This document shows positions 19,155 to 57,896 of a stretch of 64,000 nt of DNA, piece by piece; the first letter of the stretch is position 1, and each line of letters begins with the position of its first letter. This DNA comes from Blautia sp. (GTDB lineage: Bacteria > Bacillota > Clostridia > Lachnospirales > Lachnospiraceae): the NCBI GenBank assembly GCA_023667395.1, contig JAMPAC010000005.1:47261-111260 (forward strand). Direction: 5' to 3'. The position numbers and the translations under genes are program-made. Under the pieces are notes generated by a model. The model was not told the origin of the DNA. It was given only the letters and a program-made list of their open reading frames with translations, and ran no database searches.

Positions 19155-19785
19155 TTACTGCTTATCTATTGTTCTATCAAACAGCGGCATCCATTCCCTT
19201 TGCTTATATTTACCTCCATCCAACCAGATTGGCGTGAGCGTATAGGTCGGAACATTGGATTTTAAAACAACCAACTGTTGTGCATCATTATATCCCAATT
19301 TTCCCTCTTCGATTCTTTCCTGCGTCCATTTTTCCTTTAATTTTCCGTCTTCATCACTTTTCGCCGTCTTTAAAATTTCTCTTCCTATTTCACTGAAATA
19401 TTTCTGTACAATCTGCTTTTGCCTTTGATCTTTAAATACCGCCGAATGGTCAGAAAATACTTTTTCTGTCATATCAAAACCAAACTTAATCTCGACATTT
19501 TCTATTCCCAACTCTTTTAAGCGCGTTAAAATTTCTGTTTCTTTCTCCTGGTTAAAACATATATATGCCAAAATTATTTTCTGACCTTTTAATTTTTCTT
19601 TTTCCTTTGCAGTCAATTCTTTTACATGTGACTCCTGCGTCTCCCTTTCCCCTATAGGTATTCCCATATACTCCTGAAAGATAGAAATAACCTGCCTACC
19701 GGAATATGCACCGTCATCAAAAAAAAATAATAGCTTCTTTCTTTCCGTTTTCCCTTAACGATTCAAATTTCTCTTGACATATCAT
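19155..19785 (-). pseudogene. frameshifted phosphoribosyltransferase-like gene (PRTase-CE type)
   Basis: The main open frame (to 19155) can be followed upstream of its first ATG at 19667 through DDGAYSGRQVISIFQEY, but it hits a stop upstream. An adjacent frame supplies QEKFESLRENGKKEAIIFF and joins the first exactly at a run of nine T residues on the coding strand (19719-19727). Adding one T restores a single frame. The joined segment, a hydrophobic strand then DDGAYSG, fits the PRPP-binding loop of phosphoribosyltransferases. The C-terminal half with WLDGGKYKQREWMPLF fits the PRTase-CE group seen in defence islands. The total is only about 210 residues, so the N-terminus is also missing, or the upstream 139-residue gene was part of it. 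Phase variation or a sequencing error at the T9 run are alternatives to decay. Confidence 0.5.
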
Positions 19786-21570: not shown

Positions 21571-21598
21571 ATAGCGTCGGTTTTCCTGCCCGGTTGCA
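21571..21598 (-). promoter_or_regulatory. candidate ECF-like promoter (copy 1 of shared motif)
   Basis: On the minus strand TGCAAC (21593-21598) is 16 bases from CGCTAT (21571-21576). The spacer CGGGCAGGAAAACCG is shared with the site at 27477-27504. It faces the gene starting at 21450. Confidence 0.45.
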
Positions 21599-21607
21599 AA
21601 AAAAGCG

Positions 21608-21744
21608 CAAAAAAATTCTGTAGATCTTTTCTACAGAACTTTTTGGTAATCGGAAATGAGGAAACCGTGTACGGATCAGTGTGTCAATGCCCTGTATCGG
21701 GCTCATTCCATTTCTATCCTGCCAATAGCGCCCCTCTTTCCCAC
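21608..21744 (-). ncRNA. candidate small RNA or one-repeat CRISPR unit, copy 1
   Basis: On the minus strand a promoter TTGCAG-N17-TATGCT (21751-21779) is followed by about 137 bases and a terminator hairpin (TTCTGTAG/CTACAGAA, 21616-21638) with a run of seven T. Inside is GCCC-GATACA-GGGC followed by ATTGACAC, which looks like the 3' end of a CRISPR repeat (stem plus 8-base tag). The next roughly 34 bases before the terminator block are unique to this copy and have the length of a spacer. A second unit with the same outer parts lies 1 kb away. No other repeats follow, so it is not a proven array. Confidence 0.5.
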
Positions 21745-21816
21745 GCCTTAAGCATAACACAATCCCATACTTTCTGCAAGAAAATCAATTCGATTTACAG
21801 CTTGCCAGATTTTCAT

Positions 21817-21891
21817 CTAACTTTTGCCCATACGTTTTCCTGTAAGTTTCAAATCTTGCTTAAACTGATTAGATGGAACAATTTTAAGCAT
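21817..21891 (-). pseudogene. remnant of a YafQ/RelE-type toxin gene (24 codons)
   Basis: The frame begins MLKIVPSNQFKQDLKLTG, the typical N-terminus of YafQ-type mRNA interferase toxins (about 90 residues when complete), and stops after 24 codons. Its ATG overlaps the stop of the antitoxin remnant, the normal coupling of these pairs. The break lies near the outer edge of the candidate small RNA unit, which suggests insertion or deletion there. Confidence 0.7.
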
Positions 21892-22048
21892 CGGTAAATA
21901 CCTCGTCTAACACTTCATCCAATGATTCATAGCGCTTGTAATTACCGGGATTCTTTTTCATTTCCTCATATTCATCCAACGCCGCCCTTGTTTCCGCATT
22001 TGGCGTAAGACGTTTGATAGATGCGTAAAAAACACTTGAAATCTGCAA
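21884..22048 (-). pseudogene. remnant of a RelB/DinJ-type antitoxin gene (C-terminal 54 residues)
   Basis: The frame reads TPNAETRAALDEYEEMKKNP then YKRYESLDEVLDEV to a stop that overlaps the toxin start. This matches the C-terminus of RelB/DinJ antitoxins. The N-terminal DNA-binding half and a start codon are absent; a stop codon lies in frame just upstream. The antisense RNA promoter of the type I module overlaps the broken end. Confidence 0.65.
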
Positions 22049-22064
22049 AAATCAATGCTATTAT
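22036..22064 (+). promoter_or_regulatory. promoter of the antisense antitoxin RNA
   Basis: TTGAAA (22036-22041), 17 bases, then TATTAT (22059-22064): a near-consensus SigA promoter on the plus strand, placed just before the structured antisense RNA. Confidence 0.8.
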
Positions 22065-22070
22065 ATACAT

Positions 22071-22176
22071 ATAAAAAGGGAAAGCACCCATTCCAAAGTG
22101 GATGCTCCTAAAAAGGGTTAAATGTCCTTACGGACACTGCCTCTCTCGTGGACCAGACGAGGGAGGCTTATTTTTT
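22071..22176 (+). ncRNA. antisense RNA antitoxin of the type I module
   Basis: From the promoter at 22036-22064 a transcript of about 105 bases would run to a strong terminator. That terminator is an 11-bp stem, GCCTCTCTCGT with ACGAGGGAGGC, at 22139-22167, followed by TTATTTTTT. Two further hairpins precede it (GCACCCATTCC/AAAGTGGATGC and TGTCC-TTAC-GGACA). It is complementary to the 3' end and 3' untranslated part of the toxin mRNA, as in the txpA/RatA type. This is inferred from signals; expression is not shown. Confidence 0.7.
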
Positions 22177-22287
22177 ACGCTTGTTCCTCTTATCGAGAAA
22201 GGCAAGCAACGCAATAACAAAGCTACCAAAGGCAATCAGCAAAGCCAATATGCCAATGAAAATCGATATGATTTCAAAAGCTGTCAT
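22168..22287 (-). CDS. holin-like type I toxin, 39 residues
   Basis: The gene starts at an ATG eight bases after GGAAGGAGGTGG and encodes a 39-residue peptide: MTAFEIIS, one hydrophobic helix (FIGILALLIAFGSFVIALLA) and a basic tail DKRNKRKK. This is the signature of the Firmicute holin-like toxin family (TxpA/BsrE relatives), which depolarises the membrane when unrepressed. The leader is about 110 bases long and contains two hairpins (CCCGGCTTGCCGG and CGTACATAGTACG) that may hide the ribosome site. The overlapping plus-strand RNA is the likely antitoxin. The module looks intact. Confidence 0.85.
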   Translation of the reverse strand: MTAFEIISIFIGILALLIAFGSFVIALLAFLDKRNKRKK

Positions 22288-22388
22288 AAGCGCCACCTCC
22301 TTCCAACGTACTATGTACGTTTTGTACTCCGGCAAGCCGGGATAAGCTAGGAGGCTACCACCCTGTCATGGATACTTTCCGTAAATAA

Positions 22389-22417
22389 ATTATACCATAT
22401 TTCTGATAATATGTATA
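22389..22417 (-). promoter_or_regulatory. promoter of the holin-like toxin
   Basis: On the minus strand TATACA, 17 bases, then TATAAT preceded by TGG (extended -10). It lies about 100 bases before the toxin start, giving the long leader typical of this family. Confidence 0.7.
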
Positions 22418-22626
22418 TGAAAACATAATTTGGAATTGAAATTGGTTGACATAATCCTTTACTTTCCCATCTATTTCCTTTTCGCTTTCAGCATCCAATA
22501 TTTGCAAAGAAGTTTCTGAAAATTCCACCCTGTCATATTGGTAATTTCTGCAAGGTACGCGCTCACCATGTAAAAGGGCATAGAATGAAGAAAACAGACA
22601 TCACCAGTAGAGTACAAGAAAAGCGC

Positions 22627-22853
22627 AAAAAAATTCTGTAGATCTTTTCTACAGAACTTTTTGGAACGGATTACCTTTCGGCTGCATCCGATTCCCTGTA
22701 AACGAGCTGGCTGGAAACCAGCTGACTGCCCAGCTGAACTATTGCCTACAAAATCTAAAAACACAAAAAAAGGGAGGAGTAAATTATGAGTGTCAATGCC
22801 CTGCATCGGGCTCATTCCATTTCTATCCTTCCAATAGCGCCCCGCTTTCCCAC
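22627..22853 (-). ncRNA. candidate small RNA or degenerate CRISPR unit, copy 2
   Basis: The promoter TTGCAG-N17-TATGCT (22860-22888), the GCCC-GATGCA-GGGC-ATTGACAC block and the terminator hairpin (22634-22656 with T7) match copy 1. About 118 bases at 22790-22908 match 21681-21799 with few changes, and 46 bases at 22619-22664 match 21601-21646 exactly. Only the middle differs: 125 bases here against 34 in copy 1. That middle contains GGGAGGAGTAAATTATG on the plus strand, like the start region of the CARF-HEPN gene, so it may hold a captured gene end. Conserved ends with an exchanged centre is the main point. Confidence 0.5.
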
Positions 22854-23055
22854 GCCTTAAGCATAACACAATCCCATACTTTCTGCAAGGAAATTAATTC
22901 GATTTACCACATTCCAAGTAACAGTTCAAACTCGTCTCACAAGAATGTCTTTTCCCCAGTATTCCAGTCTTTTTCTGTCCTTTTCGTCTCCAAAATCCAC
23001 TGAAATACACAGTTTCCATGCCGTTTTAACTACTTTTAGAACCAGACTGCAAAAC

Positions 23056-24024
23056 CTATATTTTGGCTTCCGACATTTCTGCAAGCAACTTATTTCTGTA
23101 GGCAACATCCTCTGTTACCCTTTTAATATCCTCATTCCGATTATTTGACAATAGATAACTTATCAGAGAAATGATAGCGTTTTCGCCTTGAACAATGCCT
23201 TTTTGAATCCCTCTATTTTCTACACGATCCAGCACTTCACACATAGTTGTCTCTCTCCTTTCCATTTCAATATTGTACGCATCTTCAAATCGATTATCTT
23301 TTGTCATAATAGACATCAACTGCAACAGTTCATGCACATGCCTTATCGTAGTATTCGATGGAATATAATTCTTATTTTTACGCATCTGCACGAAATAATC
23401 TGCTACAATCTTAAAATCACTTGTGAACATCTGCACTTGTTCATCAGTAAGGTATGCGATTTCATACAGATTCATGCGATAGTCATTCACAAACGGCTTT
23501 AACTCTTCCGGAACGTCCAGACATTCATATAATGTTCTTGGTTTTCTCCACTGCCTGTCATATCCGAAATACAATACCAGTGTCACCACAGGGTATCTCG
23601 CTGCAGTTTTCCCTGTCTTTTCCCGCATCTCCTTATCCGTCAAGAGCTGCGCCCGGTAAGCGGCTCCGTCATAAGAAAATAACCGAAAGGGCATGTCATT
23701 GTCAATATCCGTCTGGTTTTCCAATCCGTACAGTGCGATACGCACAAGCCCTTTCCGCCAATACTTGGCGACATCCCTTTCCTGCGCATGTAACTTCCCG
23801 TCTGCCTTGTAACTGGAATTAGGGCTTTCGTCATCCAATTCTTCCTCTTTCACAAGAAGTTTTCCGTCAAACAGCAGCACATTTATGATATCCGCAAACA
23901 CGTCATTGTAAGCTTCCTCAATCAATTTCTTACTTATCTGTATCTGTTCTGTATCTGTTGCATCCGTTTCCAGTGCATGACGGTACTGCTCTAATTCCAG
24001 TTCCGCTTTCCAGTTTCTCCGCAT
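23056..24024 (-). CDS. Rpn-family recombination-promoting nuclease/putative transposase
   Basis: The 322-residue protein has the PD-(D/E)XK-like N-terminal core of the Rpn/Transposase_31 family: NDVFADIINVLLFDGK, then HAQERDVAKYW and IRIALYGLENQTDIDNDMP. The C-terminal half has helical segments and ends in a GIQKGIVQGENAI-type linker common to these proteins. The start has no clear ribosome site, so the true N-terminus may lie at residue 30 or so. Short copies of GTAACAGTTCA face each other on both sides of the gene (22918 and 24148). It lies between Cas6 and the small RNA patch and is probably a passenger rather than a CRISPR component. Confidence 0.8.
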   Translation of the reverse strand: MRRNWKAELELEQYRHALETDATDTEQIQISKKLIEEAYNDVFADIINVLLFDGKLLVKEEELDDESPNSSYKADGKLHAQERDVAKYWRKGLVRIALYGLENQTDIDNDMPFRLFSYDGAAYRAQLLTDKEMREKTGKTAARYPVVTLVLYFGYDRQWRKPRTLYECLDVPEELKPFVNDYRMNLYEIAYLTDEQVQMFTSDFKIVADYFVQMRKNKNYIPSNTTIRHVHELLQLMSIMTKDNRFEDAYNIEMERRETTMCEVLDRVENRGIQKGIVQGENAIISLISYLLSNNRNEDIKRVTEDVAYRNKLLAEMSEAKI

Positions 24025-24144
24025 GGATGGTGGTTCTTTGGAAAACAGGTATGCCGCTCCGTCCGCTCAGAACAGGGCAGTGCGCCTCCGCCGTCCCTTT
24101 AGCTGCAAACCGACAAATCGCCGGAAACCATCGGGGCTGAACTG

Positions 24145-25119
24145 TTACCATTCCAAATGATATTTCCCAAACCCAAAGCTGGTATTTTTCCCGATCTGCG
24201 TCACCTCACCCGCCAGCAGCAGATCCAGCCACTTTTCTGAAATGTCCGTCAGTTCCGCCTTTCCCACAATGCCTTTCAGCATGATATTCTGTCCGTGTCT
24301 GGAGGAATACCTGGAAATCTCTTTCTGCCTGGCCCACCCGGAGGCCACGGTCAGCGCGGGCTGTTCCGGCGGTTGGAACAGCCTGTACCCGCCGCCCTCT
24401 TCCCCAATCACGTTTTCAAAACAGGACAGTATCCACAGCCTCCGCAGCACTCCGGCGCTCAGGGCTTCCCCTGTAAAAGACTGCTGGAACTGCCCCTGAT
24501 ATTTCAGACATAAAGGAGTCTCAAAGACAAGGGATCCTGCAAACGGCTCCCTGTTCCCCGGCTCCGTCTGTTCACAGGCCTGCAGCAGTTTTGTCCTCCT
24601 GTGAGCCACATACTCCCCCAGGGTTTCCCACCGGTACCGCTCCATATAGACATTCCGCCCCTCCAAAACGGGCTGTCCATACAGGTTGCGCACCGACAGG
24701 ACGCGGAACCGGCTGCCATGACTTCCCAGCCCGTTCTGCCCAAGGGCGTAAACCGCATTCAGATACTGGCTGAAATACACGATCGTCCTGCCAAACAGGG
24801 TCAGCGTAAATTCCAGGCGATCCCCCGCCGCAAACTCTTTTCTCCTGTCCGTGCAGCAGAGGGTATATCCCACGCTGTCCCCTGCATGGACGGACTCCGG
24901 CAGCTTTTCAAAGCGGGAATACATCGTCCTCTGGACAATGCATTCATCCCGGAACCCACAGCTTTCGCACTGCCTGTTGGCAATACAGTTGGCCCGCAGC
25001 AGCATTTCCCCGATCCCTCCGCGGATGGCGGAGACTTTCTCCCGGACTAACTCCGTCTCCTCCTCAAATTCGATTACAAACGTCAACCTTGTATACCTGA
25101 TCTTTTTATAATCCTCCAT
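24145..25119 (-). CDS. cas6: CRISPR pre-crRNA processing endoribonuclease Cas6
   Basis: This 324-residue RAMP protein ends with the glycine-rich loop IGKNTSFGFGKYHLEW, the C-terminal signature of the Cas6 family that cuts repeat RNA to make crRNAs. An N-terminal ferredoxin-like strand opens the protein (IRYTRLTFVIEFEEE). A four-cysteine cluster lies at about residues 45-60 (CIANRQCESCGFRDEC) and may bind zinc. A second Gly-rich segment (LGQNGLGSHGSRFRVLSV) is typical of the same family. The start follows GGGAG. It is the last gene of the CARF/sigma-like operon and is physically apart from the Cas10 operon. No array of usual size is present in the window for it to process. Confidence 0.88.
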   Translation of the reverse strand: MEDYKKIRYTRLTFVIEFEEETELVREKVSAIRGGIGEMLLRANCIANRQCESCGFRDECIVQRTMYSRFEKLPESVHAGDSVGYTLCCTDRRKEFAAGDRLEFTLTLFGRTIVYFSQYLNAVYALGQNGLGSHGSRFRVLSVRNLYGQPVLEGRNVYMERYRWETLGEYVAHRRTKLLQACEQTEPGNREPFAGSLVFETPLCLKYQGQFQQSFTGEALSAGVLRRLWILSCFENVIGEEGGGYRLFQPPEQPALTVASGWARQKEISRYSSRHGQNIMLKGIVGKAELTDISEKWLDLLLAGEVTQIGKNTSFGFGKYHLEW

Positions 25120-25181
25120 CCGGTCAACTCCCTCTCAGCGCCTGTTCCACAGCCTGGCGCCTTTCCTCACAACTCCCGTAC

Positions 25182-25544
25182 TCAGGCCGTTCCATACTCC
25201 CTGAACCGGACAAACTCAAATTCCACTTCTTTCTTCCCCGTTGCCGGATCTTCCTTCACTTTCCGCTCACTGCAGGCTGCGACTACCCTGATCCCTCTTG
25301 CCTTCAGTCTCGTGACCACGGCATAAGCCATGCAGAATTCCCCCTGGCACATGACAGCATCGGGACAATATTTCTCAATCTTTTTGCATTCTTTTTCCGC
25401 ACAGGCGGTCAATTCCGCAGTCCCCATATCCGGCGGCACATTGGGAAAAGGAATGTCCACGATATCCTTCCCCAGCTTCCGCGCCGCACGGATCTGTTTT
25501 TCTCCCCATGCACTGCTGGGATGATTCGAATAATTTACAAACAC
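25182..25544 (-). CDS. minimal Rossmann/CARF-like protein in type III locus, candidate ring nuclease
   Basis: The start is GTG, overlapping the end of the sigma-like gene, so translation is probably coupled. The 120 residues make one Rossmann-like unit: VNYSNHPSSAW, DIVDIPFPNVPP, PDAVMCQGEFCMAYAVVTRL and VVAACSERKV, ending in FEFVRFREY. Small single-domain proteins of this kind (Csx15/Csx16/Csx20 groups) sit in type III loci and some degrade cyclic oligoadenylate. Assignment to one of these groups is not certain. Its place between the sigma-like gene and Cas6, downstream of a CARF gene, supports a signalling or signal-removal role. Confidence 0.55.
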   Translation of the reverse strand: MFVNYSNHPSSAWGEKQIRAARKLGKDIVDIPFPNVPPDMGTAELTACAEKECKKIEKYCPDAVMCQGEFCMAYAVVTRLKARGIRVVAACSERKVKEDPATGKKEVEFEFVRFREYGTA

Positions 25545-26752
25545 TGGAACACATCCCTTTCTTTCACCAAAAGCGCTTTCACCAGTTCCACATACTTCTT
25601 CCGCTCCCTTGAGATCGTGCTCTTATCCTTTCCCTCCAGTTCCGCGATCACCTTGTCCGAAAAGTCAAAATCCCCCCGCAGAAGCTTCACGTACACCTCA
25701 TGGAAATCTTCCGGATATTCCGCCAGCGCCCTGTGCAGATACTTTTCATCCAGCAGCTTCCGGTACAGGAAACCGCCCCTGGGCTCCAGCAGCAGATAGA
25801 ATTCCACATCCCCCGCCGGTTCCGTGGGATAGGGCTGACCGTTGCCGTCCAGCTTCAGTTCCTTTAACAGGTTGGAGGAAAAAAACAGCTGAATGGTTCT
25901 CTTCTCCCGCAAGCCTTTTCCCGAGTCGATCAGTGCCCATTTCCTCTCGATATTCTCGCAGAAAGCTTTCAGCATATCCCGGGCCGCTTCCCGGTTCTCC
26001 GCCTCCTCCGTCCCGTTCCTCTCATCCGCCAGCTGAAATTCCACAGGATCGCCGTTCTCATCCGTTCCCCCGTCCATGGATATGCAGGAAACGGTATCGA
26101 ACACCAGCGTCCGCACCAGTTCCCGCGCCTTTGCCGTATACCAGTCTTTTCCCTGACACTCTTCCCGGATCTCGTCCATGATTTTGTCGGGAGACGCTTC
26201 TTTTCCCATCCTCTGCATCATATTTTTCCTACCGCGCGCCAGTTTCATGATCCTGCACAGATTCCGTTCCGGTATCTCCCCGTCGTATATGCCCATCCCG
26301 CTTAAGTCGTTTTTCGCCGCTCCCATCTGGGCGGCCTGCTTATAGAGCACCCCCAGACAGGCCAGGAAGCTGTATCGCTCTCCCTTCCCGTTCACTCCCG
26401 TGTAACTGCATACCGCCTTATTTATGGCTTCCGCAAAGGCCACGTTGTCAATATCCTGCCTGTTTTTCACCGACGCGATATCCTCGTCCATGCCATATCC
26501 TTTTTCCCGCTCCTTATGGGCGTCCGTCAGCCGTTCCTGAAACCGCCTGTATGCTCCCGGCCTGTAAGCCTGCATGGCTTCCGTCCAGAAGTCGTCCCGC
26601 ATGGGATACCTCCGGAACAGATCCAGGCGCTGCTCCTTTCCTTCCCCTCCGCCGGTTCCCACAGGCATCCGGGCAAGCTTTCCCAGAAAATCCCCATGCC
26701 TGGCCTCAAATTCTCCGGCAAGTTCCTCTTTGATATCCTCTCTTCCGTCCAT
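25535..26752 (-). CDS. sigma-70-like protein linked to a CARF protein
   Basis: The ATG follows GGAGGACGAAAGG, 16 bases after the CARF gene. The 405 residues follow the order of a sigma-70 factor. Residues about 103-142 look like a helical region 2 core. At 160-195 IPERNLCRIMKLARGRKNM and GKEASPDKIMDEI mirror the region 3 pattern P...L.KI..AR.......GR.PT..EIA. At 224-262 SMDGGTDENGDPVEF and LADERNGTEEAENREA mirror the acidic SLD...DE...PEE linker. At 360-392 SDKVIAELEGKDKSTISRER fits a region 4 HTH. This is pattern reading, not a database hit. An N-terminal extension and a 50-residue insertion before the HTH are unusual. It is not the CalpS ECF type. A role as a CRISPR-triggered transcription factor is inferred. 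Confidence 0.55.
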   Translation of the reverse strand: MDGREDIKEELAGEFEARHGDFLGKLARMPVGTGGGEGKEQRLDLFRRYPMRDDFWTEAMQAYRPGAYRRFQERLTDAHKEREKGYGMDEDIASVKNRQDIDNVAFAEAINKAVCSYTGVNGKGERYSFLACLGVLYKQAAQMGAAKNDLSGMGIYDGEIPERNLCRIMKLARGRKNMMQRMGKEASPDKIMDEIREECQGKDWYTAKARELVRTLVFDTVSCISMDGGTDENGDPVEFQLADERNGTEEAENREAARDMLKAFCENIERKWALIDSGKGLREKRTIQLFFSSNLLKELKLDGNGQPYPTEPAGDVEFYLLLEPRGGFLYRKLLDEKYLHRALAEYPEDFHEVYVKLLRGDFDFSDKVIAELEGKDKSTISRERKKYVELVKALLVKERDVFQCL

Positions 26753-26768
26753 CCTTTCGTCCTCCGGC

Positions 26769-27374
26769 TTATGATCTGATCATCTTTTGCAGCGCTTCCT
26801 GCATTTTCTCGATTCCCAGTCCATGCATTTCATCGATCACATTCCCCAGCAGCTGGAATACCGTCAGATCGTACAGGCAGGCTCCGGTCATTCTCCCGGC
26901 CTCCCTTTTCACCTCTCCGTAATAGATGCCGTCCACCTCACAGTCCTTTATTTTGGGGAGAAAACTCAGGGCATACAACAGCACGGCGGACATGGGCTTC
27001 GTTCCAAAGGTGATATCCCCATAGACCAGCGATCCCTCCGGTATTTCCTCCAGAATACGCATGAGCAGTTCAAGGCTCACGGCGTCGCTCTGCTCCTCCG
27101 CCACGGAGATCACCCTGACTTTCTCTTCCCCTATGCCAAGTTCCGCCAGTTCGCCCAGAAACGCCGCGTAATTATCCGGCGTATCCGCAGTATCCGGACG
27201 CACGGCCAGCACCGTTACGTCGTCTCCCGGATCCTGATGACCGGCAATCACCGGAATAATGGGAAAGCTGGACTCCCGGTTATGCTCCAGCGCAAAGCCC
27301 TTGGGCTCATACAACAGCTTCAGCAGATCTCCCCTTGCCTGGAGGGAGATATTGGTAAGATAGGTTTTTTTCAA
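26769..27374 (-). CDS. CARF-domain protein (sensor of cyclic oligoadenylate)
   Basis: The start is TTG after GGAGG. The 201 residues are one Rossmann-like CARF domain: VTVLAVRPDTA near residue 53, KVRVISVAEE near 85, and the signature YGDITFGTKPMSAVLLYAL at 118-136, which corresponds to the D-T-H-G loop of TM1812-type CARF domains. No HEPN, nuclease or HTH domain is attached. CARF-only proteins either cleave the ring signal or pass it to a partner. Here the next gene, 16 bases away, encodes the sigma-like protein, so control of that protein is plausible. The operon has a divergent promoter region shared with the CARF-HEPN gene. Confidence 0.78.
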   Translation of the reverse strand: MKKTYLTNISLQARGDLLKLLYEPKGFALEHNRESSFPIIPVIAGHQDPGDDVTVLAVRPDTADTPDNYAAFLGELAELGIGEEKVRVISVAEEQSDAVSLELLMRILEEIPEGSLVYGDITFGTKPMSAVLLYALSFLPKIKDCEVDGIYYGEVKREAGRMTGACLYDLTVFQLLGNVIDEMHGLGIEKMQEALQKMIRS

Positions 27375-27476
27375 TGTCTGCGGCCTCCTTTCCGATGTAC
27401 ACCACCTTAATTTTAAGACAGAAAGCCAAAATATGCAAGCGCCATACGCTTCCTTCTTTGCCCTCCTGCTCTTTCC

Positions 27477-27504
27477 ATAGCGCCGGTTTTCCTGCCCGGT
27501 TGCA
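27477..27504 (-). promoter_or_regulatory. candidate ECF-like promoter of the CARF/sigma-like/Cas6 operon (copy 2 of shared motif)
   Basis: On the minus strand TGCAAC (27499-27504), 16 bases, CGCTAT (27477-27482). The -35 AAC and -10 CG features are those of ECF-type promoters. It lies about 100 bases before the TTG start at 27374 and overlaps the plus-strand promoter. Confidence 0.5.
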
Positions 27505-27528
27505 AAAAGACAATATTTCTGCTATACT
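27500..27528 (+). promoter_or_regulatory. SigA-type promoter of the CARF-HEPN gene
   Basis: TTGCAA (27500-27505), 17 bases, TATACT (27523-27528), about 32 bases before AACGAGGGG and the ATG at 27566. Its -35 box overlaps the -35 of the divergent promoter, so the two units may compete. Confidence 0.7.
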
Positions 27529-27565
27529 TTTTTCAAAATCTAAAAAGAAAAACGAGGGGAAACAT

Positions 27566-29131
27566 ATGAGCAGACACTTTATCACCGTACTGGGTACGGG
27601 CAACTATTCGGAATGTGTTTATGAGATGGAAGACGGACAGTTTGCATGTAAGACGCCCTTTGTGCAGATCGCCGTTTTAAAGTATGTCATGCCCGACTTC
27701 AAGCGCGGCGATAAGATCACCGTCTTTGCCACGGAGAAAGCGGAAGAAAAAAACTGGAATACCACCATAACGGCAACGCCCCAAAATAATGGCGGCAAAT
27801 CCAAGCCTGTACAGAAAAAACTGCGTTTCGGGAAAAAGACCTTTCACCTGCAGTTCCAGATGGAATCAGCAGCCGAAGCCGACAGCCTGTCCTCCGGCGG
27901 GACGGAGAGAAAAGGGCTGGACGCTTTATTGCAGGAAGAATTTCCCGAAGTGCAGAGAACGATAGTGCGGATACCCGAGGGCAGGAACGCCCGGGAACTG
28001 AACCAGATCTTTGAATGTATTTACGGAGCGCTTTCCAACGGTGAAACCATATTCTTTGACTTTACGCACGGCCTTCGCAATCTTCCCATGCAGGCGCTGG
28101 CAGTGGTAAACTATGCCAAGGTATTAAAAAGGGTCAAGGTCAGGGGACTCTACTATGGCGCTTTTGAACTGGGAACACTACAGGACGACGGCCTGCGGCA
28201 TGTGCAGATTCTGGACATGTCTTTCTGCAGTACGCTGCAGGACTGGACCAGCGCGGCTGAAGCTTTCGTGAAAACTGGCAGCAGCAATCAGATCAAGACT
28301 CTGTACCAGCGGCTGAACGACACAGACAATGCAGATTCCGGATACAAGAACATTCTGAACAGTCTCTATGATCTGACAAACTGCCTGGAGACCTCAAGGG
28401 GAACCATCGATTCCGCAAACCGGACGGACGCCACCCCTCCAAACAGCCGAAACAGTATCTATTGCGCCTGCAAAACTTTTCAGGATCAATATAAGGAACT
28501 GTATTCCGGGCGTCTTTCCACCCAGGATCATCCTGCCACCGACCAGCCCATAGAGCGTCTGATCGAATATATCTACAGGGATGTGAAGATCTTAAGCAGC
28601 AGAAAGCTTTTCCTGGAAAGGGACGGACGACAGGTCAAGATGAGATATACTGCCCTGGGAATGTCGGCGGTACAATGGGCGCTGGACAAAAACCTGATCC
28701 AGCAGGGCTTTACTGCCCTGAATGAAACGATCATCAGCTATATATGTGAGTTGTACAATGTTCCGGCAAAATTCTGGCTCTGGCGGGAAGACGTCAGGAG
28801 AACGGTTCGAAGCGTGTCCGTGGACTACGAGGACGAGCGGTATCCGCGGGATGTCAGGGAAACATATTGGATCCCGGACTGGAAAAAGAAGAATCCGGAC
28901 CTTGTTGAAAAATTCGGGGAACAGGCGAAAGAAATATTGCTCACCCTTCCCGAAAGTGTGTTTATGCTTGTCAAACAGATAGCCAATGACCGAAATTCCC
29001 TGAACCACTTCGGCTTTTCGAACGATGGGACACTGCTCGCCTATGATGTTCTCAGACGCCGTCTTGTGGACAGATACCAGCGGATGAACCAGATTCTGGA
29101 AAATACCCCCGGTATCACAGGTTCCGTCTGA
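27566..29131 (+). CDS. CARF-HEPN ribonuclease (Csx1/TM1812 family)
   Basis: The start is the ATG at 27566 (MSRHFITVLG) after GAGGGG; the longer frame upstream covers promoter sequence. The 521-residue protein begins with a Rossmann-like CARF domain of the TM1812 type: ITVLGTGNYSE at 6-16 and FFDFTHGLRNLPMQAL at 163-178. The C-terminal HEPN domain carries RNSLNH at 476-481, the R-x4-H active site. In type III systems such proteins bind cyclic oligoadenylate made by Cas10 and cut RNA without sequence preference. It is the only plus-strand gene of the locus and converges on the J-domain gene 31 bases away. Confidence 0.9.
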   Translation: MSRHFITVLGTGNYSECVYEMEDGQFACKTPFVQIAVLKYVMPDFKRGDKITVFATEKAEEKNWNTTITATPQNNGGKSKPVQKKLRFGKKTFHLQFQMESAAEADSLSSGGTERKGLDALLQEEFPEVQRTIVRIPEGRNARELNQIFECIYGALSNGETIFFDFTHGLRNLPMQALAVVNYAKVLKRVKVRGLYYGAFELGTLQDDGLRHVQILDMSFCSTLQDWTSAAEAFVKTGSSNQIKTLYQRLNDTDNADSGYKNILNSLYDLTNCLETSRGTIDSANRTDATPPNSRNSIYCACKTFQDQYKELYSGRLSTQDHPATDQPIERLIEYIYRDVKILSSRKLFLERDGRQVKMRYTALGMSAVQWALDKNLIQQGFTALNETIISYICELYNVPAKFWLWREDVRRTVRSVSVDYEDERYPRDVRETYWIPDWKKKNPDLVEKFGEQAKEILLTLPESVFMLVKQIANDRNSLNHFGFSNDGTLLAYDVLRRRLVDRYQRMNQILENTPGITGSV

Positions 29132-29162
29132 TACCCCGGCGTAAAAGGGGGATGAAGTATGG

Positions 29163-29882
29163 CTACTCCGCTTTTGCATACCTTAAGAGCAGATTGTAAG
29201 CCGTGTTGATCCTCTTGCACATTTCTTCATCCCCTCCGCCTGTATTATCCGGATGAAACTGTTTTATCAGCGCATTTCTGGCTTTTTTCAGTTCCACCCT
29301 TGTATAGGACTCTTTCACCCGCATCAGCTGTCTTGCCTGCTGAAGGGAAGAGGTCTGTTTCTGCTTCCGCTGCTGCGCTTTCTCCCTCTCCGCTCGTTCT
29401 CTTTCCGCTTTCTCCCGTTCCGCTCTTTCTCTCTCCGCTTTCTCCCTCTCCAGGCGCTCTCTCCACAGCCTCTCCTGCTCGGCTCTCTCCCGCCGGATCT
29501 TCTCCTGCTCTTCTTTCTCCTTTTGTATTTTTTCCCATTCCATCCCACAGGCCGTCTTTTCCCTTTTCCGCCTGTCATACAGCTGGGCGTAGGGCCTGGA
29601 CTTTCTCTTGATGGCGACGATAACGCTCGTCATAAGGGCGTCCGCTATGTAGGCGGAAGCCGCCCAGGCAAAGCGCAGCAGGAGGTACGCCCACACCAGG
29701 CTTCCAAAGCTGCCGACCGGCCACATTTTGACCACGATAACCAGTGTCAGGACAACATCCATAAACAGCATCAGCAGGACGCCCTGACAATCAGCCTGTA
29801 ATTTTTTCTCCGCCGCCCTGTAAACGGCGTTTCCCAGAAACGCGGCGCACCCTGTTTTCCATTCCTTTATCCGTTTCGTCAT
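29163..29882 (-). CDS. membrane-anchored J-domain protein
   Basis: The ATG at 29882 has GGAGG seven bases before it. Two membrane helices lie at about residues 36-85 (GVLLMLFMDVVLTLVIVV and LVWAYLLLRFAWAASAYI). A long charged coiled coil follows at about 112-180, built of RERAEREKAE repeats. A C-terminal J domain at about 185-239 has the HPD motif in KQFHPDNTGGGDE. J domains recruit Hsp70 (DnaK), so this protein would bring DnaK to a membrane site. It lies between the type III-D RAMP operon and the CARF-HEPN gene and carries its own promoter with the locus motif. A functional link to the CRISPR system is suggested only by that context. Confidence 0.82.
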   Translation of the reverse strand: MTKRIKEWKTGCAAFLGNAVYRAAEKKLQADCQGVLLMLFMDVVLTLVIVVKMWPVGSFGSLVWAYLLLRFAWAASAYIADALMTSVIVAIKRKSRPYAQLYDRRKREKTACGMEWEKIQKEKEEQEKIRRERAEQERLWRERLEREKAERERAEREKAERERAEREKAQQRKQKQTSSLQQARQLMRVKESYTRVELKKARNALIKQFHPDNTGGGDEEMCKRINTAYNLLLRYAKAE

Positions 29883-29963
29883 GACCATTCCTCCTCCCGC
29901 AGGAGCGGTTCCATAGTACCGCTTCCCGTTCAGCCAGGGCTTTCCTGCCCTCCTGTCAGTACT

Positions 29964-29991
29964 ATAGGGCTGGTCTTTGCGAACAGTTGCA
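29964..29991 (-). promoter_or_regulatory. candidate ECF-like promoter of the J-domain gene (copy 3 of shared motif)
   Basis: On the minus strand TGCAAC (29986-29991), 16 bases, CCCTAT (29964-29969), followed by AGTACTG. It has the same elements and spacing as the sites at 21571 and 27477, but the spacer sequence differs, so it is not simply a duplication. Confidence 0.4.
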
Positions 29992-30021
29992 TGAAATGAA
30001 AAACTTTTTTATTTTATTTCT

Positions 30022-31908
30022 TTATTCCGGTTTTACCACCGACCGGATCTCCGGGAGCGCCGCTTTTCTGCTCTGGTACTCCCTTGCATTGATATTCATG
30101 TATCTGGTCTTTCCGTCCTCCGGGATCCTCCGGGAATCTTTCATCAGAAAGAACTCCTGGATATGTGGCAGCCGGTCTATGGTCCTGCTGCCCAGATATC
30201 GGTTTATCTCCTCCTTATAACACTCTATGGCCTGATCGATCTCTATCCCGCAGAAAGGATCCGCCGCCAATTCTTCCGACTGATAGGCGCGCTGCATATC
30301 CAGCTTCCCGGCTTTTGTGATCCGCACGGATATTCTCCCGTAGCCGTAGGATTTTGCCTTGCCCACGTTCATCTGGGAACCCTCGTTCAGCCTCACCGCC
30401 CATAACAGCAGACCCAGTTCGTCCTCCGTCAGGTTCCGGAAACGGATCTTCCCGGCAAATTTCGCCCCTGCCGCCAGAGGCCGCATGGCTGACGCCATTA
30501 TGTCATTTCCGCCAAAGTCCTCTGCCACTGGCGCTTTATGAAGCCAGTACTGCTTCGCCCCGCGCAGCTGAAAACCATCCGTATTATATGTTTTCTCCGC
30601 TTTCCCGTCCTGCTTCAGATAATCGAGATAGCTGGAAGGCTTGGGCTCCGCCAGGATCAGCTTCCGCTCCGCCCCGCATCCCGCATCATTCTGCAGTACC
30701 GCATCCGAAAAGGAAAGCTTGGACTTATAGCTTTTTTCCGGCGAAGCGTATCCGAACAGCGCCTTGGCATAGTCCACGCCGCCTGCTTTCCCTATCTGCT
30801 TCAGCCCCTCCTTCACGCTATGGTCATAAAACAGCCGCAGTCTGGGCGTAAAGCCGAAATATAATCTGCCCCCTGACCGGATATAGAAAACGGGACGCAT
30901 CTCTCCCTCTTCGGGCAGATCAAAGCACTGTTTTCCCCCAAACTGCTTCAGCGAATTTTCCCGCTTTTTCATATCGATCCGAAACACCCTGATGTCCTCA
31001 TCAGGGATACGGAGACTGTCCTTTCCCTTATCCACTTCCGGAATGATATAGACCGCTTTTTTCTCATTCATCCTGCCTGTGCTGACAGCGTATCCCTGAT
31101 TTTTGTACTCTCCGGGATATCCTACCGCCGTAACGTCTTTCCCATGGCTCACTTCATAGGACACGGGCAAGTAATAGGGAAGATACTCATCGTTGGGCGT
31201 TCCCTCATAATGCACCCTGCCGTTCCGTTCACTGCGTCTGAACGCACGAAACTCATGCTGCAGAATACTCCTGCCTTTCTGGAGGAAAAAGCCATAGGAA
31301 AACCGATCCCCGTGTTTCAGATAATCATTGATGATTTTCCTCTCACTTAAGACATAATAATTCATTTTGTGAAAATCCCGATCAACAGAATCTATTTTTG
31401 TCTGATAGATCACATACTCTCCGCCTTCATTGAACACATACCCTGCCTGTACATTCTGCAATACGCTGAACCGATAACTTTTATTCCCCTCCCGGAGTAC
31501 CAGCTGCTTCGCCCCCAGGATATTGTTATACCGCGCTTTCTCCGCCCCATATGCCACAGTGCGGTACATCAGCGCGTAATCGTCAATATCCTCCTCATAG
31601 CCGCACAGCCCCAGCACCTGCACATTATTCCGGATCAATCCCCGCATGGTGCTGCCGGGAATCGCGAATCTGCCTTTTGCATCCCGGTAAAAATGCCCTG
31701 TCCCGTCGTCGATCATGACGGGGGTCTCCGCAGTGACCTCATAGGAAATCTCCCCCGTGACCAGATTCTCCTCCATGGAATCATGGTCGGTAAGTTTTCC
31801 TGCCGGATATTGATAGGGCTTATCATAAAAAGAGATAAAATTATAGGGGGCGCCCACGTATTTCTGATTCCCGCCGCTGTTTGCCTGATATGATTTTCTG
31901 TCTCCCAT
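30022..31908 (-). CDS. type III-D CRISPR RAMP protein, TIGR03986-like
   Basis: The 628-residue protein starts after GGAGGCAGAAGGG. It has the N-terminal YNFISFYDK segment and the RAMP motif FAIPGSTMRGLIRN at about 80-95. The C-terminal glycine loop reads MNVGKAKSYGYGRISVRI at about 515-532. Size and motifs fit the TIGR03986 family of large RAMP proteins found in type III-D complexes, where they form part of the backbone or cap of the effector. It is the last gene of the seven-gene operon, 12 bases after Csx19. Confidence 0.85.
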   Translation of the reverse strand: MGDRKSYQANSGGNQKYVGAPYNFISFYDKPYQYPAGKLTDHDSMEENLVTGEISYEVTAETPVMIDDGTGHFYRDAKGRFAIPGSTMRGLIRNNVQVLGLCGYEEDIDDYALMYRTVAYGAEKARYNNILGAKQLVLREGNKSYRFSVLQNVQAGYVFNEGGEYVIYQTKIDSVDRDFHKMNYYVLSERKIINDYLKHGDRFSYGFFLQKGRSILQHEFRAFRRSERNGRVHYEGTPNDEYLPYYLPVSYEVSHGKDVTAVGYPGEYKNQGYAVSTGRMNEKKAVYIIPEVDKGKDSLRIPDEDIRVFRIDMKKRENSLKQFGGKQCFDLPEEGEMRPVFYIRSGGRLYFGFTPRLRLFYDHSVKEGLKQIGKAGGVDYAKALFGYASPEKSYKSKLSFSDAVLQNDAGCGAERKLILAEPKPSSYLDYLKQDGKAEKTYNTDGFQLRGAKQYWLHKAPVAEDFGGNDIMASAMRPLAAGAKFAGKIRFRNLTEDELGLLLWAVRLNEGSQMNVGKAKSYGYGRISVRITKAGKLDMQRAYQSEELAADPFCGIEIDQAIECYKEEINRYLGSRTIDRLPHIQEFFLMKDSRRIPEDGKTRYMNINAREYQSRKAALPEIRSVVKPE

Positions 31909-31920
31909 CCCTTCTGCCTC

Positions 31921-32295
31921 CTATGCGATTCCCATGAGTCTTGTGAGCGCTACCGATGCCTGCCCATCCTCGTCATATTCCAGATGTTCGCAGACACACA
32001 GGTATTTTCCCGGTCCGAAATAACGATCCTGCAGCGCATATTTCCTGACCAGACAGTCCTCATCCATGGTTCCTGTTACCCGCACCGCCCGCCATTCGCC
32101 CTCTTCCCCGTAGAGATGCATTTCCTTATCCTCGCCGAAAAACCGCGCTTCCAGACATTCATCCCAGTCAGGCTCCTTCAGATCCGCTGTCCTGCAAAAG
32201 GTAATGCCGCTCATCCCGTATACCAGGGCATACGGATACTCCCCTATATGCTCCAGGGCCTTACCCGCATCCATCCTCTCCGCTGTGTAACTCAT
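31921..32295 (-). CDS. csx19: type III-D accessory protein Csx19
   Basis: The start is the ATG at 32295 (MSYTAERMDA), seven bases after GGGGGGAGG, and it overlaps the stop of the double-RAMP gene in an ATGA. The 124 residues contain ALVYGMSGITFCRTAD and a conserved-looking LQDRYFGPGKYLCVCEHLEY, in line with the small Csx19 group that occurs between RAMP genes of type III-D operons. Its exact role in the complex is not established. Family assignment rests mainly on size, order and context. Confidence 0.65.
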   Translation of the reverse strand: MSYTAERMDAGKALEHIGEYPYALVYGMSGITFCRTADLKEPDWDECLEARFFGEDKEMHLYGEEGEWRAVRVTGTMDEDCLVRKYALQDRYFGPGKYLCVCEHLEYDEDGQASVALTRLMGIA

Positions 32296-33638
32296 CCTGC
32301 CGCCTCCCCCCTGTGTACTGCCTTCATGCACCTTAAAACGATTCCCGCCGTATCCGTCACGACGCCCTTTTTCCATTCGACCGTGGCGGTATCATGGTTT
32401 TTATGATCCCGGATCACTATGCGTTCCACGTCGATAAAGCCTTTCCCCACGCCATATCCGCTGCCCACGCTCATCAAACCTGCTGCCATATCCCGAAGCG
32501 CCAGCAGGAGCAGCCCGCAGGTACTGTCCGGATGATTCCGGTCATTCACCAGCATATGGAACTCGACCCTGCCGGACACATTTTTCTCGTTAAACAGCCC
32601 GCCGTGGATGACCCCTCCCGTAAACTTGTCGAGATGGATCCTGCTCCTCACAGGTGCCTGATCGTTGTCCTCCCTGTTCCCCACTACCGCATCAAAAAAC
32701 ACAATATTGCCTGTCTCTCCGAAAGTTTCTTCCATGACGCTGCCATTGCCCAGATAGGAGGCGATCTTTTCCATCTGGCTCCTGACGGCACCCTTGAGCG
32801 AACTTCCCGGCACGATATATTCTTTTGCCGCGTTCCTGATATTCATACTGTCAGGCGCGTCCTTCCCATAATCCTGCACCGCGATGCTTTTCACAAGCAG
32901 TTCGCCCTCCGTGCTTCCCGTCACCGTCACTTCATATGCCGCCGCAGACGCTGCAGGAGTCTGCATCTCGTGGAAAATATCCTCATAAGCATCGTCCCCA
33001 AGGGAGTCCTCATCCGCCCATTGTCTGCGGTCCTCCGCCTTTTTCATATCAAAGGCCCTTCTTTTCAGGCTCTTCAGTTCCATAAAGCCGCAGCCGTTGC
33101 TCTTCTGCCCGCCGAACTGTACGTTTCCCTGATGAACCGCCGAAAACGTCTCCTCCAGTTCCTCCCGGAAGCCGTCGTCGTAGAGATATACGGAAAACCC
33201 GAATTCCGCGCCTGCCCCGATATATCCCGTGCTAAATCTATGACCCGCCTGCCTGTCCGTTCCCTTGATCGTACTGCCTGCACAGGCTCCGGTCTTTGGG
33301 TCGATACTGACCCGGGGGCGGAGTTCCAGGATCAGGTGTTCCTCTGAAAACAGCCCGTCGCTGAACCTGACCCTGCTGGCGCCGCTGCCGGAATCCGTGT
33401 TTTCCCCGGAACGAATATCGCCAAAAAGTCTCGCCGCCTGCGCTTCACCGTGAATCTTCCCGTAATACTGCCGCAGCACGCCGGCCAGGCCGGAAGCCTG
33501 TATAAAGGGAACGTTGGATACCGGATGCACCAGCACTTCCTCCTGATCCCCGGATGCGCTTCCGATGTGGAAAGGCTGCGTGCAGACTGCAGTCACCAGA
33601 TATTTTATCACTTTCTGATATTTCATGTTTCCTGTCAT
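32292..33638 (-). CDS. double RAMP protein (fused Csm3/Csx7-like domains), type III-D
   Basis: The ATG follows GGAGG and directly abuts the Csx10 stop. The 448 residues hold two RAMP folds. The first has FIQASGLAGVLRQYYG at about 45-60 and FGGQKSNGCGFMEL at about 173-186. The second has YIVPGSSLKGAVRSQ at about 272-286 and the glycine loop SVGSGYGVGKGFIDVE at about 393-408. Fused Csm3-like units form the crRNA-binding backbone in type III-D complexes and often carry the Asp residues that cut target RNA; several Asp residues in the second domain (such as SRIHLDKFTGG) are candidates. Confidence 0.85.
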   Translation of the reverse strand: MTGNMKYQKVIKYLVTAVCTQPFHIGSASGDQEEVLVHPVSNVPFIQASGLAGVLRQYYGKIHGEAQAARLFGDIRSGENTDSGSGASRVRFSDGLFSEEHLILELRPRVSIDPKTGACAGSTIKGTDRQAGHRFSTGYIGAGAEFGFSVYLYDDGFREELEETFSAVHQGNVQFGGQKSNGCGFMELKSLKRRAFDMKKAEDRRQWADEDSLGDDAYEDIFHEMQTPAASAAAYEVTVTGSTEGELLVKSIAVQDYGKDAPDSMNIRNAAKEYIVPGSSLKGAVRSQMEKIASYLGNGSVMEETFGETGNIVFFDAVVGNREDNDQAPVRSRIHLDKFTGGVIHGGLFNEKNVSGRVEFHMLVNDRNHPDSTCGLLLLALRDMAAGLMSVGSGYGVGKGFIDVERIVIRDHKNHDTATVEWKKGVVTDTAGIVLRCMKAVHRGEAAG

Positions 33639-35168
33639 TTACGCGCCTCCTGTTTCTGTCCCTGCTGTTTTTTTGTCATACCGTATCATTCTTATGAGCA
33701 GCTCCAGCTTATATTTCAGTTCCTCCTCTTCGGTGAGCAGCCTGGATTTCGGAACTCCCATAACACTCTCTTTCCGCTTCGTACTGACGGACAGCAAGGT
33801 TTCCAAATCAGTGTCAAATACGCGGTGTATATACTTTTTCAGTTCTCCGATACTGTTTCTGGCTTTCTGTATATTGCTGTTCTCTTCCTTGTCAAGGGCA
33901 TGGCTCAGATACCCGTCGATATATCTCACAGCCTCACGGGATTCATATTGATATGCGGCTGCAAAGGATTCCAGGATATCCAGCTGACTGTTCGCGATCT
34001 TTCCTTTCGGAAACGGATGCTCTACCACATACGCATTTATTTTCCTGTCCAGCAGATTGCGGTAATAGCATCCCGCAGCAATCTGCAGGGTTTCCCCATC
34101 TTCCGCATATCCCTCCTCTGCGGCGGGAACCATCCTTTCTACGGGCAGTGCGGCTTCCTTATATCGGATTTTTTCATATCCGCCCAGGAACATGACCCTC
34201 CCCAGACCTTCGTTCAGACGGATGCCGATTCCCCGGTGGCAGAGCGCAAGCATTCTTTCCCTTGTAAACGTTCCGTTATATTTTAAGTGGAACACGCTGC
34301 CCTGCTCATACATGACCGCCGACGGCGTCCTGGTCCTCCATGTGTTGTTGAATCCCCTTACATCCACCGTGGATGTGGCGCAAAAAGCTGCCTCCAGACC
34401 GGTCACATCCATCTTTTCCGCCAGCGCGGCACAGTCCAGTCCGCACAGTTCTCCCTTTTCATCCCGCATGACCGTATTGGATAAGAGCATCATATAACAT
34501 TCATTTTCCAGATCCTCTGCGGGCAGATACTCCTCAAAGGGAAGCCTGTCCGTATATTCACAGCGGATCACCCTGCATTTGCCAAGTCCTGCGGTGCGGG
34601 CGTTTCCCACTGTGAAATCTCCCGCAAACACATCCCGTATCCTCTCCCTGAGGCTGTCATCCTCCAGGGCGATATAGCCTGTAAAAGTATAGCCCGCGCA
34701 GATATGCTCGCTTCGGAATACATTCCGCTTTTCCTCATTGATCGTGATCTTAAGGTCTGAACCGGTATCCACATTATAATAGTAAATGCAGTCCCCCTCC
34801 ATACGGCAGAATCTCCCCAGGGACGCCCGCTTTTTCCCTTCCTCAAACTCCCCCCGGATCACCACGTTGTCTATTTCTTTCTTCCCCCGCTGTTCCGTCT
34901 TGTCCTCATAGAATCCTTTCGGCGAAGGAATCAGTTCTTTCTCCCCGTCTGTCAGATAGGCGTTCAGATACCTGACCCTGGTGGAAAGCAGACTCTTTTT
35001 CATGGTCTCAAAATCCGCTTCCCGCGCCAGCGCATTCATCACAACGCCCCTTAACGCCGTTCCCGGTATGTATCGCAGCGTCACAGTCTGTCCGCTCTGG
35101 CTGCTGCTGTCATCGGCAATCCGCACCGGCTCCAGGTTCTGAAAAACGATTTTTAAATATTCCCCCAT
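33639..35168 (-). CDS. csx10: type III-D RAMP protein Csx10
   Basis: The 509-residue protein begins EYLKIVFQNLEPVRIADDSS and has the RAMP motif YIPGTALRGVVMNALA at about 33-48, the usual N-terminus of Csx10. A glycine segment FTVGNARTAGLGKCRVIRCE occurs near 195-214 and RLNEGLGRVMFLG near 315. Csx10 is the marker subunit of type III-D complexes and takes the Csm4/Cmr3-like place next to Cas10 at the 5' end of the crRNA. It lies 12 bases downstream of the small RAMP gene. Confidence 0.88.
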   Translation of the reverse strand: MGEYLKIVFQNLEPVRIADDSSSQSGQTVTLRYIPGTALRGVVMNALAREADFETMKKSLLSTRVRYLNAYLTDGEKELIPSPKGFYEDKTEQRGKKEIDNVVIRGEFEEGKKRASLGRFCRMEGDCIYYYNVDTGSDLKITINEEKRNVFRSEHICAGYTFTGYIALEDDSLRERIRDVFAGDFTVGNARTAGLGKCRVIRCEYTDRLPFEEYLPAEDLENECYMMLLSNTVMRDEKGELCGLDCAALAEKMDVTGLEAAFCATSTVDVRGFNNTWRTRTPSAVMYEQGSVFHLKYNGTFTRERMLALCHRGIGIRLNEGLGRVMFLGGYEKIRYKEAALPVERMVPAAEEGYAEDGETLQIAAGCYYRNLLDRKINAYVVEHPFPKGKIANSQLDILESFAAAYQYESREAVRYIDGYLSHALDKEENSNIQKARNSIGELKKYIHRVFDTDLETLLSVSTKRKESVMGVPKSRLLTEEEELKYKLELLIRMIRYDKKTAGTETGGA

Positions 35169-35180
35169 ACTGCGCCCCCT

Positions 35181-35753: not shown

Positions 35754-35770
35754 TGTAAGTCCCTCCCATT

Positions 35771-37225: not shown

Positions 37226-37284
37226 CTTCCGCCTCCTCTGATTCCTTTTCCATAACCTGTATCCGCCAGGCTGCAAGCCGGAAT

Positions 37285-57895: not shown

Positions 57896-57896
57896 A

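Follow-up and report, generated by a model that had tools for sequence, protein, structure and literature searches.

Results

A CARF gene and a sigma-70-like gene form a tandem pair

The stretch of Blautia sp. DNA analyzed here (the window; 64,000 nt of contig JAMPAC010000005.1) carries a type III-D CRISPR-Cas locus that includes, on the minus strand, the pair of genes that is the subject of this work: a CARF-only gene (27374-26769) followed, after a gap of 16 nt, by a gene for a 405-aa protein that resembles sigma-70 factors (26752-25535, ATG start). This arrangement had been proposed from the sequence alone, and both the reading frames and PADLOC bear it out. The CARF protein (201 aa, TTG start) falls within the CARF superfamily by its match to the PADLOC model CARF2--CARF (E 7.8e-56), and the NCBIfam model cas_TM1812 also matches it (E 8.3e-9), under the model cut-off. 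Since the PADLOC model fills residues 1-194, the chain has no room for an effector domain, and it carries no helix-turn-helix (HTH) of the kind that defines Csa3-type architectures. Across nine aligned CARF proteins 12 residues are invariant, D120, T122 and K126 among them; together with the family and the CRISPR setting, these residues suggest that the protein binds cyclic oligoadenylate.

The pair recurs in other genomes

A copy of the 405-aa protein with 98% identity occurs in a public assembly (locus L002, metagenome-assembled genome Bacillota bacterium NALB_7961_10). The ratios of nonsynonymous to synonymous substitution rates (dN/dS) between the window and L002 are low for the sigma-like gene (0.104), the CARF gene (0.217) and the Cas6 gene (0.109), which indicates that all three are under purifying selection. 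Used as a query against 397 genomes from its taxonomic family, the 405-aa protein had matches in four, namely its own, G007, G198 and G368. A four-member profile matched four of 392 genomes of the order: its own, G198, a new one (G677), and G188, where the match (E 8.4e-5) lies in a ribosomal-protein operon, has a stop inside it and was rejected as false. The five real cases, which we call family A, all have a CARF-only gene directly upstream. Identity to the window proteins is 25-29% for the sigma-like proteins and 42-55% for the CARF proteins of G007, G368 and G198, and rises to 57% and 73%, respectively, in G677.

When the window CARF protein was the query, seven of the 397 family genomes matched. 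In G118 and G304 the CARF gene is followed by a gene for a shorter sigma-like protein (294 and 292 aa). The G118 protein in turn matches the plasmid pTS2 of Treponema saccharophilum (NZ_AP025290.1; E 1e-7) and an unverified record labelled Bacteriophage sp. (MT835511.1; E 2e-64), and on pTS2 both the G304 CARF protein (E 2e-22) and the window CARF protein (E 4e-6) match beside the sigma-like gene. Both genes are present in the same order in the two records, and these four CARF-partnered sigma-like proteins constitute family B. Searches of viral contigs, plasmids and phage records found no relatives of the 405-aa protein, a scan of genome contigs returned only the 98% copy, and viral scans with the family B proteins, a CARF profile (A4) and a family B profile (A5) found none.

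The 405-aa protein is related to sigma-70 factors through a bridging family

Profile-profile comparison, the check put forward with the original prediction, finds the 405-aa protein related to sigma-70 factors by way of family B. The reference loci were retrieved with Pfam Sigma70_r2, and 27 of 30 were used: 19 factors from five genomes, which we label RpoD-like and alternative, formed the main set, 8 resembling extracytoplasmic function (ECF) factors were kept apart, and L041, L046 and L058 were excluded as having no clear sigma frame at the match. In hhalign, families A and B align with a score of 59.8 (probability 93.9) over 227 columns, and family B aligns to the 19 sigma factors with a score of 73.1 (probability 96.4, E 1.3e-9); this second alignment spans 221 columns and runs colinearly through regions 2 to 4. 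In 100 column shuffles the best scores were 24.4 and 21.3, respectively, and nine decoys, unrelated alignments from the same loci of which one (HEPN) forms part of another, scored at most 17.6 with family A, 18.8 with family B and 18.1 with the sigma set. The two families combined score 72.2 against sigma (probability 96.0), a result carried in part by family B. Colinear homology to regions 2, 3 and 4 is thus direct for family B and extends to family A via family B and in the combined profile. HMMER searches of NCBIfam concur for the family B proteins other than that of Treponema: the G118 protein matches RpoS (E 1.2e-7) and the G304 protein sigma70-ECF (E 6.7e-4), both under the model cut-offs, and the MT835511.1 protein matches RpoD_Cterm over residues 65-219 (E 3e-6).

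The blocks of the 405-aa protein are named here after the sigma regions to which we take them to correspond. The three that had been proposed in sigma order (residues 160-195, 224-262 and 360-392) do align by profile to region 3, the linker and the region 4 HTH, and a further, region 2-like block that was absent from that list aligns as well. This last block covers residues about 92-142 (26327-26479), its start falling at residue 101 in the A-B alignment and at residue 92 when A+B is aligned to sigma; by eye, F129 to Q139 of family A occupies the place of the sigma F...RQ in region 2.3. The region 3-like block comprises residues 160-223 (26084-26275), as judged by comparing family A with the 19 sigma factors over window residues 163-245, and is followed by an acidic linker like sigma 3.2 at residues 224-262 (25967-26083), which aligns to the sigma linker stretch. 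Ahead of the HTH, the family alignments reveal an insert of variable length (residues 300-359; 25676-25855) that is a gap relative to sigma, and the region 4.2-like HTH itself (residues 360-394; 25571-25675) is recovered when family A is compared with the other sigma factors (score 31.4, columns 367-396).

Several results temper the sigma assignment and the prospect of a role with RNA polymerase. The direct comparison of family A with sigma is modest, scoring 40.5 (probability 51.5) with A as the query and 30.6 (probability 8.6) with sigma as the query, over just 76 columns, and a reversed sigma alignment scores 23.9. Pfam sigma models match none of the seven family A or B proteins scanned. 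NCBIfam sigma models match only the window member of family A, at E 0.0042 (RpoD_Cterm) to 0.12, with a best score of 16.7 bits against a cut-off of 354; the other four members (L003, L004, L005, L024) have no such match, and no NCBIfam model at all matches the Treponema protein of family B. In Pfam, the HTH of the G304 protein instead matches an iron-dependent repressor model (E 1.9e-4, under cut-off). The core-binding stretch 2.2 shows a 7-column gap relative to sigma factors, which makes polymerase binding by the 405-aa protein uncertain. Finally, single-sequence AlphaFold2 models are of low confidence, with a mean predicted local distance difference test score (pLDDT) of 40.8 over the whole chain and 52.0 over residues 93-264. 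They are best in the region 3-like block, and fold searches with them returned uninformative matches, none clearly sigma.

These weak direct matches, their absence in the four relatives and the uninformative fold searches would fit a chance likeness among helical, acidic proteins with an HTH. We regard that explanation as scarcely credible, as the A-B and B-sigma scores lie far above the best shuffles and decoys and the alignments are colinear across three regions. Purifying selection, recurrence in three genomes and scores above shuffles and decoys likewise argue that the pair is more than a product of chance. We conclude from these profile comparisons that the 405-aa protein is a diverged sigma-70 relative, a case made mainly through the family B bridge, its own direct evidence being weak. 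Because its matches stay below the cut-offs of the curated sigma models, we refer to it as a sigma-70 relative without classing it among the sigma factors.

Other database searches returned little. In the PDB, the 405-aa sequence matched two fluorescent-protein entries only (E about 1), its family profile matched nothing up to E 10, and the CARF protein had no sequence match. Matches of a CARF profile (A2) to pentatricopeptide entries (to E 3.3e-8, with no single stretch passing) and to pterin enzymes (E 0.19) were taken as artefacts. Weak Pfam matches of family A (Inhibitor_I36 at E 0.097, Agglutinin_C at E 0.0075, others weaker) were mutually unrelated and rejected, and PADLOC offered no model for the sigma-like proteins, four of which were tried.

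Pairing is regular and almost exclusive among the genomes searched

To the pairs described above, scans with a further CARF profile (A7) added three new CARF-only genes, in G1060, G1435 and G1327; the profile matched 17 of 391 genomes drawn from the class and 37 of 388 drawn from the phylum, two partly overlapping sets. Each of the three genes has a III-D Cas10 in its locus and a same-strand partner downstream. Every one of the 12 CARF-only genes that could be judged is accompanied by a same-strand partner, spaced at -11 to +38 nt; ten of these partners are sigma-like by profile, one is so locally only, and one is without sigma support. The G1435 partner scores 49.4 with family A and 78.2 with A+B (shuffle maximum 19.1) and 21.4 with sigma directly (maximum 22.0); its one NCBIfam match is to an effector model (E 6.8e-4, far under cut-off). 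The G1060 partner scores 28.2 with sigma over 21 columns (maximum 14.7) and 24.0 with A+B over 37 columns (maximum 20.4), and the 642-aa partner in G1327 scores 14.8 with sigma (maximum 16.8) and 28.9 with family B over 51 columns (maximum 19.7). These comparisons used 25 shuffles, and NCBIfam has nothing for the G1060 and G1327 partners. By eye, the latter protein (locus L114, 10782-12710, plus strand, ahead of cas10) seemingly contains repeated region 2-like stretches.

The count of 12 leaves out G1337, where a 207-aa CARF open reading frame with a Csx1-like start lies at a contig end with no visible partner, and G1285, a CARF-HEPN-like gene in two frames. The match in G272 from the scan with the window CARF protein, a 505-aa frame, was dropped as well, and the remaining CARF matches of the A7 scans, all in frames of more than 400 aa, were counted as fusions by length. 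A mirror-tree comparison gives a correlation of r 0.87 (0 of 10000 permutations), which says no more than that the pair moves as a unit. These data support the view that the CARF/sigma-like pairing is conserved and almost exclusive among the genomes searched.

Such regularity bears on the idea that the CARF protein works on its own, as a ring nuclease or ligand sponge, with the sigma-like gene merely co-traveling. Several CARF proteins are described as ring nucleases (PMC12409355), but all 12 pairs are tightly spaced, both the window and L113 (the two loci tested) already have a Csx20, itself a predicted ring nuclease, and the pair also occurs where no Cas10 was found (G304, NZ_AP025290.1 and MT835511.1). 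We therefore consider this idea very improbable. An effector-less CARF protein tied to one partner would most simply act through that partner.

The pair heads several defense gene sets

A III-D Cas10 lies within 10 kb of eight of the 12 pairs (the window, L008, L009, L010, L024, L113, L114 and L115). The pair stands directly ahead of cas10 in L009, L010, L113 and L114 and ahead of cas6 and cas10 in L115. Other placements speak less for a regulator at the head of the cas genes: the pair comes after effector genes in L008 and L024, it sits inside the cas operon in L009, and in the window, where it likewise lies past the effector genes, it is apart from the head of the cas operon, ahead of csx20 and cas6. 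As a separate observation, the cas10 of G007 (L008, 10567-12117, minus strand) reads as two frames separated by a stop.

The remaining four pairs are away from a III-D Cas10. In G118, Cas10 is on a different contig and a conjugation-type ATPase gene lies downstream of the pair. No Cas10 was found in G304 with the model PDLC01529, nor in the records NZ_AP025290.1 and MT835511.1; two marginal PF22335 matches in G304 are GGDEF proteins (one a GGDEF-FIST protein by Pfam, the other by eye). The G304 pair (L027) is followed by genes for a vWA protein, a 415-aa protein, FtsK, PP2C, a kinase and a superfamily 1 (SF1) helicase, and the MT835511.1 pair (L060) by vWA, PP2C, protein kinase and SF1 helicase genes, with BrxL and WYL genes upstream. 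On the Treponema plasmid, MoxR-type ATPase and vWA genes lie further downstream, beyond two opposite-strand genes. The vWA-phosphatase-kinase set corresponds to the TerY-P triad of CoCoNuT systems. The 5' end of CoCoNuT operons is reported often to be occupied by RtcR, a CARF activator that acts together with sigma-54 (PMC11090510), and this placement of a CARF activator offers the strongest precedent for a regulatory role of the pair. G304 also encodes, elsewhere (L119, 523-2031, minus strand), a CD-NTase (SMODS E 2.2e-6) beside a Cap15 receptor-domain protein (E 1.4e-24), likely a cyclic oligonucleotide-based antiphage signaling system (CBASS) locus in a genome that has a CARF-sigma pair and no Cas10 found.

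Position also bears on the possibility that the sigma-like protein is itself an effector, a signal-dependent decoy of RNA polymerase that shuts down host and phage transcription and brings on dormancy. Other type III ancillary proteins are described as degrading nucleic acids or proteins or stopping translation (PMC11229360), and a diverged promoter-contacting part would suit a core-binding sigma unable to start transcription. Yet in L027, L060, L113, L114 and L115 the pair heads the gene set, where a regulator would usually be found, and the window already has a CARF-HEPN protein, as L008 has a long TM1812-type CARF protein (the long proteins of L009, L113 and L115 are similar by reading, with a weak Pfam CARF match in that of L113 only). 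A decoy thus seems unlikely to us.

A stronger rival holds that the sigma-like protein is a DNA-binding regulator with two contact sites, assembled from sigma parts and having no role in a holoenzyme, with the CARF protein as its sensing subunit; the pair would then be the two-chain counterpart of CARF-HTH regulators, of which Csa3 is one, and could turn the cas operon up or down. The retained HTH with a gapped region 2.2 stretch, the variable insert of about 60 residues ahead of the HTH, and the position of the pair ahead of the cas genes in L113, L114 and L115 would all fit, and fusions of CARF to a winged HTH are described as a common regulator design (PMC4012209). What counts against it is that family B retains the colinear region 2-3-4 layout, which would be superfluous in an ordinary DNA binder, and we rate it as a lesser possibility, though one to be taken seriously.

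The surrounding locus and other features of the window

Directly downstream of the 405-aa gene is the gene for Csx20, the predicted ring nuclease (25182-25544, minus strand; PADLOC E 1.7e-35, NCBIfam CAS_Csx20 E 7.5e-10, under cut-off), followed by that for Cas6 (24145-25119, minus strand; Pfam CRISPR_Cas6 E 2.2e-11). On the other side lies a Csx1 of the CARF-HEPN type on the plus strand (27566-29131; PADLOC CARF2--CARF_HEPN E 1.5e-80); its frame opens at 27374, and the likely start at 27566 was judged by comparison with L002. The type III-D operon, all on the minus strand, comprises a Cas7 of the TIGR03986 type (30022-31908; NCBIfam E 5.3e-89), Csx19 (31921-32376; NCBIfam E 1.1e-8, at the cut-off of 35 bits), a III-D Cas7 (32292-33638; PADLOC E 1.4e-49), Csx10/Cas5 (33639-35168; PADLOC Cas5_IIId E 4.1e-42), another III-D Cas7 (35181-35753; PADLOC E 1.9e-55) and Cas10 (35771-37288; PADLOC Cas10d E 2.1e-114). 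The window and the 20 kb to its left showed no CRISPR array, the right end being the end of the contig. The original prediction had also stated that a Lon-type protease is missing; this holds for the 13 annotated genes at 24145-38256, none of which encodes a Lon or SAVED protein, the rest of the genome not having been searched. A promoter scan of 24000-30500 gave 5 sites where 3.9 were expected, so we make no promoter claim.

An adenosine deaminase-family gene (37285-38256, minus strand; Pfam A_deaminase E 3.5e-32) shares 4 nt with the cas10 frame at the latter's 5' end and could be a member of the CRISPR operon; type III systems are described that include a CARF-fused deaminase (PMC12669630). 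Between csx1 and the cas operon, a gene at 29163-29888 (minus strand) encodes a protein whose C-terminal part matches a DnaJ-like domain (Pfam E 1.7e-5, just under cut-off) and whose N-terminal end is, by eye, hydrophobic.

Farther away, the minus strand carries a cluster (54594-61540) in which a DUF5682 protein (Pfam E 4.2e-99) stands amid frames that read as ATPase, vWA-like and zinc-finger-like, and it also encodes a 1189-aa protein with a DUF4132 domain (48966-52535; Pfam E 2.1e-50) and a protein with a PRTase-CE domain (19155-19667; Pfam E 2e-16), a family from conflict systems. Two repeat pairs at 21597-22916 (50 nt at 98% and 127 nt at 93%, spaced by about 1.0-1.1 kb) are possibly the ends of a mobile element.

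Discussion

Our analysis leads us to lean toward a reading in which the pair is a CARF-controlled switch of the sigma type that links second-messenger signaling to transcription. Foreign RNA would trigger Cas10 to make cyclic oligoadenylate, most likely cyclic tetra-adenylate (cA4), since a Csx20 is present in the window and in L113 and a Csx20 has been described that degrades cA4 and, at higher protein level, the tri-adenylate cA3 (PMC12409355). The CARF protein would bind this ligand as a dimer and, by direct contact, alter its grip on the sigma-70-like partner. In the form we favor, the ligand-free CARF protein holds the partner and the ligand frees it, whereupon the sigma-like protein would guide RNA polymerase to defense promoters, possibly including those of the cas genes. 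The reverse form, with activity residing in the CARF-sigma complex that has bound ligand, is almost as likely.

The pair may also belong to something broader. We tentatively entertain the idea that CARF plus sigma-70-like protein is a general two-gene module reaching beyond CRISPR, through which second messengers made by Cas10, and perhaps by CD-NTases, switch RNA polymerase to a defense program. That the module works through direct CARF-sigma contact and is used both by III-D loci and by kinase-phosphatase-vWA gene sets is, to our mind, similarly possible without being the likelier outcome.

Type III CRISPR effectors are mostly regarded as toxic enzymes. If the proposed switch is real, it would be a second case, besides CalpL/CalpT/CalpS, of an alarm molecule wired to a sigma-type protein, with no protease in sight and perhaps by direct contact, and transcriptional reprogramming would be a repeated answer to infection. 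Because the pair also heads non-CRISPR defense gene sets, it would then offer a small, testable module joining nucleotide signals to RNA polymerase.

A CARF and sigma-70 pair did not appear in the literature searched, supplements, most subscription papers and bioRxiv having been outside its reach. In the 2025 CRISPR classification (PMC12669027), the word 'sigma' does not occur in the main text and section 8 names transcriptional regulators only generally. Several known systems share features with the pair. The neighboring Csx1 has a related CARF domain fused to HEPN, whereas the CARF protein of the pair has neither HEPN nor any other effector domain. MzaA, the sigma-70 protein of the MZA defense system (NCBIfam NF041931), is likewise a defense-linked sigma-70 relative, and the G118 protein matches its model at E 8.2e-5, as one of several general sigma matches. 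A CARF partner is not known to be part of MZA.

Closer parallels come from regulators. Csa3 resembles the pair as a CARF sensor tied to transcription control in CRISPR loci, but it joins CARF and a winged HTH in one chain, where the window has two chains and a sigma-related partner (PMC8699464, PMC4012209). RtcR and the CARF activators of CoCoNuT systems likewise head defense operons, of which the vWA-PP2C-kinase-helicase sets of L027 and L060 are the same kind; RtcR, however, is a single CARF-ATPase-HTH chain that works with sigma-54, whereas in the pair the partner is itself sigma-70-like (PMC11090510). Nearest in logic is CalpL/CalpT/CalpS, in which a type III CRISPR second messenger also leads to a sigma factor. 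As described, that system uses a SAVED-Lon protease as sensor, a separate anti-sigma factor and an ECF sigma factor (PMC11417357); the window, by contrast, has a CARF-only sensor, neither protease nor anti-sigma factor among the 13 annotated genes, and, in place of the ECF factor CalpS, a larger protein that has an insert as well as parts resembling regions 3 and 4.

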